From Cucumis sativus (Eukaryota; Streptophyta; Magnoliopsida; Cucurbitales; Cucurbitaceae), in contig NC_026658.2 in the NCBI RefSeq assembly GCF_000004075.3, positions 24,168,075 through 24,232,074 of the forward strand: a DNA stretch of 64,000 bases, written 5' to 3'. Every line of letters begins with the position of its first letter. Positions within the stretch are counted from its first letter, which is position 1. Shown piece after piece: positions 51,341-59,265 of the stretch. The notes beneath the pieces are model-generated. The model saw only the letters and a program-made list of their open reading frames with translations. It did not search any database and had not been told where the DNA came from. The position numbers and the translations under genes were made by a program.

Positions 51341-52011
51341 TATAAGTGTAAAAAACCTGTCATTTTTGCATTCTTCACGTGTGCTGTATATTATATTTAT
51401 TTTTCTAATTTGTACTATTTTTCAATTTGCTATTTAAAAATTTGTTGTTTTGGCATGAATATAAGTACGTAATTTCAGTTGACATATGACTTATAAACTT
51501 TTCAATTTCCTCTAAAACTTAAATACTATTGAAGTTGTAATTAAAAACGAAGGACAGAGTTGAAATTTGTTCATCTATAAACTAACTAAATTTTATTACA
51601 TTTCTCATAATGTCATTTCTTTCTTAATTATTGTTCATGTCTATTTCTTAACTTCGTTGGGCTCTCTTAGACTATTTTATTCATCGGGCTCTCTTAGACT
51701 ATTTTATACATATATCGAGTAACTCTATATATTTTCGATAATTTTACGATATCTTTAAAAAAATATCTAATTAATTTACTTAAAAATAATATTAAGTAAT
51801 GACGTGGGTATATATGTTAAACAAAATATTAAAACAATAAATCTATGTAAAAGTTTAAGGGGCAAAATTGTCATTTTGTTAGGACGGTGTTCCACCTCCC
51901 TTAATCTTCATTTTTAAGAACCAGACGAGGGAAGCCTTGTTGCCAAAGAAAGTTAAAAGTCTTGCATGCCCGGCAGCCGGATCAGATCGACGCTGAGGGA
52001 AAACTTTACGA

Positions 52012-54973
52012 ATGGAGCGCCTACAGAGAATGTTCGCCGGTGCCGGAGGTTCACTGGGCCACCCTCCGCCGGACTCGCCCACTCTTGATTCGTCGGAGCA
52101 GGTCTACATCTCCTCCCTCGCGCTTCTGAAGATGCTTAAGCACGGTACTGTTCGAATTGAAGTTGCCACTTTTCTTGTTTTTTTCCACCCATATTCATTC
52201 GAGTGTGTTCACAGTCTTTTCCTAATTTAATGTTTAGAGGGTTTTTCGACTCTCCCCTTCTATATTACCAACGAATTTGGATGGTTTTGCTCGGTTTTAG
52301 GTTTAGGGTGTTGGATGTGGTTTAGGTTATTGGTAATTGATTGTGAAGCTTTAAATGAACTCCCCGTTTATGTAATTTCCACTTCAATGTGCTTAATAGG
52401 AAGAGCTGGGGTTCCCATGGAGGTGATGGGTCTGATGTTGGGGGAATTTGTTGACGAGTACACCGTGCGCGTGGTCGATGTATTTGCTATGCCGCAAAGT
52501 GGTACGGGTGTTAGTGTCGAAGCTGTTGATCATGTATTCCAGACCAATATGCTTGACATGCTTAAACAAACTGGACGGTAATTTTATTTACTTATATTGC
52601 TTGAGATTTGTAATGACTACATTTGCTGGATCTTAAAGGTTAAGTTGCTGAAAATGAAACTTTAGATGCTGAAAGAAACAGCTCCTTTTTTTAAATTTTA
52701 GTTGTATGTCCCCGCCTGTAGTGACTGGGAGGGCTTGTGCTGTCCAGTGCGTGTTTAATCTTTGGAATAGATCTGATTTTAGCATAAGATTTACATAGGT
52801 TTACTTAAATTTCATTGAAATCTATTATCTATGAAAATGGATATTTTAGAGGATCCCAGGATGGTCGAACTCTAGCCAAGAATTTTTTTTTGACAATCTC
52901 TGTTGAACAATATGCGCTTCGGAGGTATTTTAGTTAGCTGGGCTGCAATTTTCTTTTCTATTTGTACCGCTGGACCTTTGTTTGTCCAGAATCATTTCTC
53001 ATTCTGATTTCAACTCTTTACTTCTCTTAGGAAATTATTCCCTGAATGTGGACTCAACTCATTTTAGTTTTAACATCATTCCCGTTTTCATGGAGCACCA
53101 CTCACTATACTATCTTCTTTTATAACCATTTATTTGGTTGTGCACCTTGTTTCATTTGAAAGACTCTCCATTTTTGGGCGTCTCTGACTCTCTACATTAT
53201 ATTTTCTTTAGCTTTGGTTTGGTTTGGGTATGTCAGTTGACATTTTCAACAAATGAAGGTATGGTGAGAATGAAATAAAGTAATGAGTTCATGGATGTCA
53301 GTCCTCACTACACATGACCTCTATTGTTTTCATCCCAGGACCCCCCCCCCCCCCCAACCCCGACCCCAAACCATGATTGCTTGTTTGAACAAACACTTTC
53401 GCGTTGTCCCTAGCATTTGTAGATTCTGATAGTACTCCTATTAGGCTACACGAGGAGGCGTCCGAGGAAAAATTGGTGGTGAATTGAACATCTTCTGTAA
53501 TTAGTTTATTAAGTGATCCCATGAGATTATGTAGCTACCATGGACAAACGGAAGGGGGAAGGGTAGGAGTAGGCCTTGTGATTTGAGAGTGTTTTGGAGG
53601 ATAGGGGAAGCCCCTGTTTTCTTCCCCTGTTCATGTATCTATATTGATAGATAGATCCAGCATTATCAGAGTCCAGCCTTTTACACTTCAATTGTACCGA
53701 AGAGTTAAGATTGAACTCATTATTGACTTATAATCTTCTGCTGCCTTTTACCTTGAATGCTAACCATGTATTTTTTTTGTTCAGTCCTGAGATGGTTGTA
53801 GGATGGTACCACTCTCATCCTGGATTTGGTTGTTGGCTGTCTGGTGTCGACATCAACACTCAACAGGTTTGTAGTTTTTAAACAGCCTCCATTTTACATA
53901 TTGTTATGCACCTCATTGTTGAATCTTTCTCGGGGTGATTGCCATTTCTTTTTCTTGTATAATATTCTTCTCTCTGGAATTTTATAATTTTGTAATAATT
54001 TTTTTTACTGAACATTTTATTTTATTGGGTCAAGGAGGTCTTCCAGCTAGGAAAAAATGTAATGAAGATTTGCAATTGAGATTCTAATGTGATATGCGCT
54101 TACTTGTCTTCATTTGTAGAGTTTTGAAGCTCTTAATCAGCGAGCTGTTGCTGTAGTTGTGGATCCAATCCAGAGTGTCAAGGGAAAGGTGGTTATCGAT
54201 GCCTTTCGTCTAATTAATCCCCAGACAATGATGCTTGGTCAAGAACCACGTCAAACAACATCAAACCTCGGCCATCTTAATAAGCCATCTATTCAAGTGA
54301 GTGTTGAACAAATACTTTTAAATAATTCTTGCTTTCATGCCACTGACTCATACGATTGATTTCAGGCATTAATCCATGGATTGAATCGCCATTATTACTC
54401 TATTGCAATTAACTATAGGAAAAATGAACTTGAGGAGAAGATGTTGCTTAATCTTCACAAGAAGAAATGGACTGATGGCCTAACACTTCAACGATTTGAT
54501 ACACACTCGAAAACTAATGAGCAGACTGTCCAGGTAAGCATGTCTTTTATGTTTTAACCTTCTAGAGGTTGCATCTCTTCTTGCAATATCGAATAAAATG
54601 AATAAAATGAGTTTCTTGCGTTGCCAAACAATTCAATTGCTCTCTAATTGTACTTATCTAATAAAGAAAGTGCTGTGATCAATTAACTTGACGATTCACT
54701 TTTCACAGCTAACCTCGATAAAATTGTATTTCATTGTGCATAATCTTTGTTGTGATTAAGGATTTGTTATATACCGTGCAGGAAATGCTGAACTTGGCTA
54801 TCAAGTACAACAAGGCAGTACAAGAGGAAGATGAGTTGCCACCAGAAAAACTTGCAATTGCAAACGTGGGAAGGCAAGATGCTAAGAAGCACCTGGAAGA
54901 ACATGTCTCCAATTTGATGTCATCGAACATCATACAGACATTAGGAACAATGCTCGATACAGTTGTGTTCTAA
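52012..54973 (+). CDS. RPN11: 26S proteasome regulatory subunit RPN11 (PSMD14), copy 1
   Basis: Exons 52012-52144, 52400-52577, 53785-53866, 54120-54296, 54366-54533 and 54782-54973, all GT-AG and in phase, encode 309 residues, close to the usual 308-310. RPN11 is the Zn-dependent JAMM deubiquitinase of the proteasome lid that removes ubiquitin chains from substrates during degradation. The MPN+ site is complete: Glu52 (GVPMEVMG), His113 and His115 (WYHSHPGFG), Ser123 and Asp126 (CWLSGVD). The C-terminal helices that pair with RPN8 and the terminal LDTVVF are present. At residue 232 it has Gln (CAA) where copy 2 has Arg (CGA); Arg is, from memory, the usual plant residue. No disabling change is visible. 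Its second intron contains a 15-C run and a segment absent from copy 2. Confidence 0.95.
53341..53355. repeat. Poly(C) run in RPN11 copy 1 intron 2
   Basis: Fifteen consecutive C, in a copy-1-specific part of intron 2 (about 53296-53545). Homopolymer C runs this long are uncommon in AT-rich plant introns and are prone to sequencing error. Confidence 0.9.
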
Positions 54974-55238
54974 TCGAACTATGGTCGTTAAAGAACTCTA
55001 CATCCCCTGCCAGGAACATTCAGAAGATTCTTCATTCAAAGTTGCAGGGTGTCTGACTGTTAAAAACAAGTTAAATAGTGCTTAAAAACTCTTCCATTGC
55101 TAAGAATTCCTGCCTGTGTTTCACTTTCATTACATTAATGTTTTATTGGATCTTAGAATGAGAGGTGGTTTCGTTTTTACAGGACAACTATTGGTTTCAA
55201 TGCTTGGGATGTGAATGAAAAAGATAGTGTTCATAATT

Positions 55239-58800: not shown

Positions 58801-58972
58801 CAAGTACAACAAGGCAGTACAAGAGGAAGATGAATTGCCACCAGAAAAACTTGCAATTGCAAACGTGGGAAGGCAAGATGCTAAGAAGCACCTGGAAGAA
58901 CATGTCTCCAATTTGATGTCATCGAACATCATACAGACATTAGGAACAATGCTCGATACAGTTGTGTTCTAA
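55893..58972 (+). CDS. RPN11: 26S proteasome regulatory subunit RPN11 (PSMD14), copy 2
   Basis: Exons 55893-56025, 56284-56461, 57753-57834, 58071-58247, 58374-58541 and 58781-58972 have exactly the same lengths as in copy 1 (133, 178, 82, 177, 168, 192) and encode 309 residues. All JAMM residues (Glu52, His113, His115, Ser123, Asp126) are kept. The protein differs from copy 1 only at residue 232 (Arg here, Gln there) in my reading; the other exon differences I noticed are synonymous. It keeps its own upstream region similar to copy 1 and may be independently expressed. It lies tail to tail with the carboxylesterase gene, 293 bp between stop codons. A short 27-bp duplication sits in the intron after exon 4 (about 58247-58318). 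Confidence 0.95.
57146..57464 (+). mobile_element. Retroposon insertion in RPN11 copy 2 intron 2
   Basis: A 319-bp segment absent from copy 1 is flanked by perfect 19-bp direct repeats AAATAAAGTAATGAGTTCA (57127-57145 and 57465-57483); copy 1 has this sequence once, in an almost identical context. The insert is T/G-rich, includes GTGTCAACCTAGTTGAGATG, and ends ATTAATAATATTGAG, CTCGTTTCC and T- then A-runs, like plant non-LTR retroposon tails. LINE fragment or SINE cannot be decided. Confidence 0.8.
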
Positions 58973-59265
58973 TCAAACTATGGTCATTAAAGAACTCTAC
59001 ATCCCCTGCCAGAAAACACTCCGAGGATTCTTCGTCCAGAGTTGCAGGGTCTGTGATTGTTAAACGCGTTTGTTTTAAACTCTTTGTCCTGCCTGTCTTT
59101 CACTTTCATCACATTAATATTTTATTGGATCTTAGAACGAGAGGTGTTTTCGTTTCTACACGACAGCAATTGGTTTCAATATGCTTGGGGATGTGAATGA
59201 GAAGATAATAGTGTTCATAATCCATCAGTTGAGTATAGTAGCTAAAACAGAACAAATTTGAAGCT
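58973..59265. other. Shared 3' intergenic region of RPN11 copy 2 and the carboxylesterase
   Basis: Convergent genes; both 3' UTRs must lie here and may overlap. No other feature. Confidence 0.6.

Follow-up and report, generated by a model that had tools for sequence, protein, structure and literature searches.

How did a stretch of cucumber DNA come to carry, side by side, two complete genes for RPN11, the essential JAMM deubiquitinase of the 26S proteasome lid, and are both copies kept as working genes? We examined this in a 64-kb stretch of the Cucumis sativus genome (the window), where two RPN11 genes of six exons each follow one another head to tail in the same orientation (Table 1). Both copies were spliced, and each gave exons of 133, 178, 82, 177, 168, and 192 nt, a coding sequence of 930 nt (309 aa and a stop), and GT-AG borders, which were present at 10 of 10 introns, five per copy. 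The first-pass annotation of this DNA had described a complete tandem duplication with both copies intact, identical exon lengths, and head-to-tail order, and splicing bore out this description. Its extent of 51826-59221 agrees with the duplicated units that we delimited, at about 51823-55237 (copy A) and 55706-59222 (copy B), the downstream ends having been placed by eye and then aligned. Besides the whole RPN11 gene, the duplicated unit took in about 190 bp of upstream and about 250 bp of downstream sequence, and no repetition of the flanks outside 51823-59222 was found within the window. A carboxylesterase gene, tail to tail with copy B, lies outside the duplicated unit and marks the neighbourhood. 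Elsewhere in the window, a 58-bp unit occurs three times head to tail at 63233-63406, close to where a minus-strand open frame (62809-63279) starts, and 48657-49129 contains three AT-rich direct repeats, diverged from one another and each about 72 bp long.

Table 1. Features of the duplicated RPN11 region, in window positions.
Feature	Position	Strand	Basis	Remark
RPN11 copy A, ATG to stop	52012-54973	+	splicing; Pfam JAB and RPN11_C; spinach RPN11 chain 8amz_V	Q232
Copy A exons	52012-52144, 52400-52577, 53785-53866, 54120-54296, 54366-54533, 54782-54973	+		
RPN11 copy B, ATG to stop	55893-58972	+	splicing	309 aa, R232
Copy B exons	55893-56025, 56284-56461, 57753-57834, 58071-58247, 58374-58541, 58781-58972	+		
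Shared upstream block, copy A	51823-52011	+		homologous to 55706-55892; 26/187 aligned positions differ
Shared upstream block, copy B	55706-55892	+	alignment to copy A block	
Shared 3' block, copy A	54974-55237	+	alignment	
Shared 3' block, copy B	58973-59222	+	alignment	
Spacer between units, 468 bp	55238-55705	+		common to neither outer flank
258-bp stretch of intron 2, copy A only	53292-53549	+		insertion in A or loss from B
319-bp interspersed repeat, intron 2 of copy B only	57146-57464	+	genome search	
Carboxylesterase (alpha/beta hydrolase fold 3) gene	59266-61835	-	open frames 61290-61835 and 59266-59775; Pfam	

The copy A protein aligned without gaps over residues 1-309 with spinach RPN11 (8amz chain V) and human PSMD14 (12bm chain c). 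A Pfam scan was run on copy A, from which copy B differs by one residue, and PF01398 (JAB, 120.4 bits) and PF23594 (RPN11_C, 117.5 bits) both scored above cut-off. In the ungapped match and in these two domains, copy A is like the RPN11/PSMD14 of spinach and human. All JAMM residues had been said to be kept in both copies, and each translation indeed contains H113, H115, and D126 with E52, which we take to be the zinc ligands and the catalytic glutamate of RPN11. Both copies are thus predicted to code for a full RPN11/PSMD14-type deubiquitinase with a JAB/MPN domain, a C-terminal domain, and the JAMM residues. At residue 232, copy A has Q (CAA), copy B has R (CGA), a decayed RPN11 relic on contig C2 has R, spinach has K, and human has Q. 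Since the relic has R, the Q of copy A is probably derived, by a CGA to CAA change at a CpG, and the occurrence of Q in human and K in spinach suggests that this change is probably mild.

The coding sequences differed at 20 of 930 positions, with 19 synonymous changes and 1 nonsynonymous change (codon 232), so the claim of a single amino-acid difference amid many synonymous ones was upheld. Ks and Ka/Ks, the check that had been proposed, were calculated by NG86 (dN 0.0014, dS 0.098), LWL85 (dN 0.0014, dS 0.096), and ML (dN 0.0014, dS 0.080), which placed dS at 0.080-0.098 and dN/dS at 0.014-0.018. Had one copy been unconstrained since the duplication, it should have gained about 34 replacements, with the branches taken as equal and the nonsynonymous sites put at roughly 690, whereas 1 was seen in total (P ~7e-14). 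Purifying selection on both copies, which the first-pass annotation had proposed, is therefore strongly supported by the pattern of substitution.

The introns, upstream blocks, and 3' blocks of the two copies aligned at 8-17% difference. With the non-homologous intron 2 stretches (53292-53549 and 57146-57483) left out, 204 of 1699 aligned intron sites differed (0.131 per site after correction), as did 267 of 2129 sites in all noncoding blocks (0.137). An intron 2 divergence of 0.285 from a whole-unit alignment was dropped, the non-homologous stretches having been aligned together. Plant substitution rates are 6e-9 to 1.5e-8 per site and year, and with these rates the age of the pair is estimated at roughly 3-11 million years. 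The duplication had been called recent, and this holds only in a relative sense, as a dS of about 0.1 would correspond to a few million years and the introns differ by 0.131. Excerpts of two published studies put the split of cucumber from C. hystrix at 4.5 million years (PMC7917098) and that of Cucumis from the wax gourd/watermelon clades at 18.1 million years (PMC6856369), and the literature excerpts searched gave no Ks value for cucumber and melon.

If the paralogues exchange sequence, the pair is older than dS indicates, and the signal of constraint is in part not independent. Gene conversion between the copies is possible, and we regard it as a lead only. The longest silent identical run, in intron 2, spanned 83 columns and was bounded by differences at 53084 and 53167 of copy A (P 0.003 in 5000 permutations), and these identical 83 or so bp (53085-53167 in copy A) sit in a part of the intron that differs by 11%. 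Synonymous change was uneven among the exons (chi-square p 0.014, the expected counts being small), exon 2 carrying one difference. Both tests were chosen after the data had been seen, and they assume even rates. The identical tract may be a conversion tract or a conserved intronic element. A genome search with 53060-53190 matched the two RPN11 copies only, no Rfam match was found at E up to 1 in window positions 48000-64000, and the identical part had an unremarkable fold (z -1.77, with 8 of 200 shuffles folding as well).

The copies are adjacent and in the same orientation, with introns and flanks in common up to a boundary, as expected of a tandem duplication. Retrotransposition of one copy was rejected, all five introns being present in both. 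A clean exchange would have joined the end of one unit directly to the start of the next; what lies between them is the 468-bp unshared spacer, the last part of which resembles short AT-rich repeats dispersed in the genome. Since the spacer matches neither outer flank, a single clean exchange would need a later insertion or loss. We read the spacer as such a later change.

Intron 2 differs further in that each copy carries a stretch of its own. The 319-bp repeat of copy B has a 19-bp direct repeat on either side (57127-57145 and 57465-57483). At the matching site in copy A the 19 bp occur once, followed by the 258 bp peculiar to that copy, within which a run of 15 C occurs at 53341-53355. At least 43 genome matches to the repeat were counted, itself included, a lower bound since 40 of 886 candidates were scored; the best other match among those scored was 94% alike over positions 1-310. 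Many of the matches (unit about 310 bp) have common ends, and the one other genomic copy that was examined was without exact direct repeats. The repeat may be SINE-like or LINE-derived. Intron 4 of copy B (58248-58373) exceeds that of copy A by 57 bp, owing to tandem reiteration of short segments from its 5' part, by which a GTGAGT donor-like sequence is repeated.

Other RPN11 loci were sought in the assembly (226,625,048 bases in 88 contigs). The protein and Pfam searches work exon by exon, and their locus counts are lower bounds. Exon 2 searched as DNA gave two genome matches, both in this pair. The RPN11 protein gave 15 matches, 12 of them in the pair, 2 in CSN5 on contig C2, and 1 at C2:18533878-18534012; no third intact RPN11 was found among these 15 matches in 226.6 Mb. 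Pfam JAB gave 11 matches (RPN11 4, CSN5 2, RPN8 2 at one locus, eIF3f 1, Prp8 1, and CSN6 1), with RPN11 assigned by position and every other locus through one exon compared with solved structures. BRCC36, AMSH, and eIF3h, although expected, were absent from the matches of this exon-level search. PF13012 gave 4 matches, two at the RPN8 locus and two at the eIF3f locus, and missed CSN6. RPN8 was found at one locus at least, as were RPN5 and RPN6, and RPN3 at two places at least, on different contigs; RPN3, RPN5, and RPN6 were counted by Pfam name.

The single match on contig C2 belongs to a decayed RPN11 at C2:18533850-18534216, of which most of exon 6 and some 80 nt of exon 5 are left, 74-75% alike. 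It is frameshifted, and the short intron remnant that it retains between the exons shows that it did not arise as a processed copy; a search of 12.4 kb detected nothing of exons 1-4. Next to the relic, and tail to tail with it, is a carboxylesterase gene (open frame C2:18532493-18533503); copy B on contig C4 has the same arrangement. This carboxylesterase has 23 genome matches, some of them exons of one gene, and chance adjacency to the RPN11 relic appears improbable. Excerpts of the Arabidopsis literature identify CXE18 as At5g23530 (PMC5105256), which by gene number neighbours RPN11 (At5g23540). The adjacency on C2 together with the Arabidopsis neighbours suggests that an RPN11-carboxylesterase block was probably duplicated long ago, after which the C2 RPN11 was probably lost and the C4 gene later tandemly duplicated, an order based on the greater decay of the relic.

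When 60 kb of C2 were compared with 124 kb of C4, the neighbourhood of the relic showed no further collinear genes. This comparison gave 9 rows, 3 of them carboxylesterase (one antisense) and 2 RPN11; one row was out of order (C2:18514644 to window 37043), and the remaining three, each 18-19 residues long and together drawn from two open frames, were set aside. Also set aside was a 43-bp match of the upstream end of copy B near the relic, which lies within the spacer's AT-rich repeat. The window and C2 carboxylesterases are 53 and 46% alike in two exons, and a carboxylesterase cluster at C2:11.72 Mb is about as close to the C2 gene (48%). With a likeness of only 46-53% and a third cluster about as close, the relation of the two blocks rests on adjacency and orientation.

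Together, these results point to an ordinary tandem duplication with two constrained copies, likely both expressed and largely redundant, and an older C2 duplicate that decayed, a reading to which we give a probability of about 0.8. One whole RPN11 gene would have been copied with its flanks at the DNA level, probably by unequal exchange or a similar event. Because the older duplicate on C2 had by then decayed, the ancestral gene was probably the sole working RPN11 locus. Both daughters have since been kept by purifying selection for the estimated 3-11 million years. Most likely both genes are expressed today and largely redundant, jointly providing RPN11 in its normal amount.

Assembly artefacts are known to take the form of tandem copies, and two haplotypes placed end to end would give such a pair. 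Near identity of the copies would then be expected, whereas the introns differ by 0.131 per site at a dS of about 0.1, far too much for unmerged haplotypes; each copy also has its own intron 2 stretch (258 bp in A, the 319-bp repeat with its 19-bp duplication in B), and the flanking sequence is not repeated. We consider this explanation practically negligible. That one copy is silent, as a young pseudogene still unbroken, is very improbable, since a branch free of constraint should carry about 34 replacements where the two copies together show one, and since every splice site is kept in both genes. The suggestion in the first-pass annotation that both copies contribute to proteasome dosage found no support. 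In a dosage gain, two copies would raise RPN11 and hence the amount of proteasome, with which two intact and constrained copies and the presence of RPN3, another lid subunit, at two places would be in keeping. However, RPN8, RPN5, and RPN6 were each found at one locus (lower bounds), and an extra lid subunit alone should not raise the number of assembled particles. As excerpted, PMC6568242 describes lid assembly as starting from an Rpn8-Rpn11 dimer, and with RPN8 as the partner in that dimer found at a single locus (again a lower bound), a dosage gain is quite unlikely.

The copies might also have divided their regulation, with interchangeable proteins and diverged promoters, one basal and the other for proteasome stress. 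Where plant proteasome genes come in pairs, a response to NAC78 over-expression or to proteasome inhibitors is often confined to one of the two, according to excerpts of PMC6568242. The two proteins are near-identical, yet 26 of 187 upstream-block positions differ and the sequence beyond the block is not common to both copies; the PRCE core TGGGC occurs once upstream of copy A, at a distance of 354 bp, and is absent from the 919 bp upstream of copy B. Against this, one TGGGC where 0.26 is expected by composition is a weak difference and not significant, and TGGGC cores also occur within exon 1 of both copies (two in A and one in B, on either strand). Regulatory subfunctionalisation is a possible but less likely reading. 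A fuller version, in which RPN11 was re-duplicated after the loss on C2, copy A with its PRCE core serves stress and copy B basal supply, and protein identity is maintained partly by conversion, is rather doubtful; if true, it would amount to a two-gene switch for a deubiquitinase subunit that is given a single gene in Arabidopsis.

The ordinary duplication that we favour leaves a pair that is fairly young, adjacent, near-identical in protein, and distinguishable by silent differences in reads. With a failed older duplicate in the same genome, it offers a usable small test of redundancy versus regulatory division. No description of this pair was found in the titles and abstract openings of literature on cucumber, RPN11, and proteasome duplication. 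Many plant proteasome subunits have two genes, often unequally responsive (PMC6568242, in excerpt), so an ordinary, well preserved tandem duplication of RPN11 is unsurprising in plants, though an Arabidopsis subunit table, from an excerpt of PMC11546751, gives RPN11 one gene (At5g23540). The Arabidopsis 19S pairs, which in the excerpted sources include RPN8a/b, RPN9a/b, and RPN12a/b (PMC11546751, PMC6568242), are like cucumber RPN11 in being two paralogues of one 19S subunit. By their gene numbers these three pairs lie on different chromosomes, whereas the cucumber pair is adjacent and concerns another subunit; RPN11 itself, a single gene in the Arabidopsis table, is represented in cucumber by two tandem genes.
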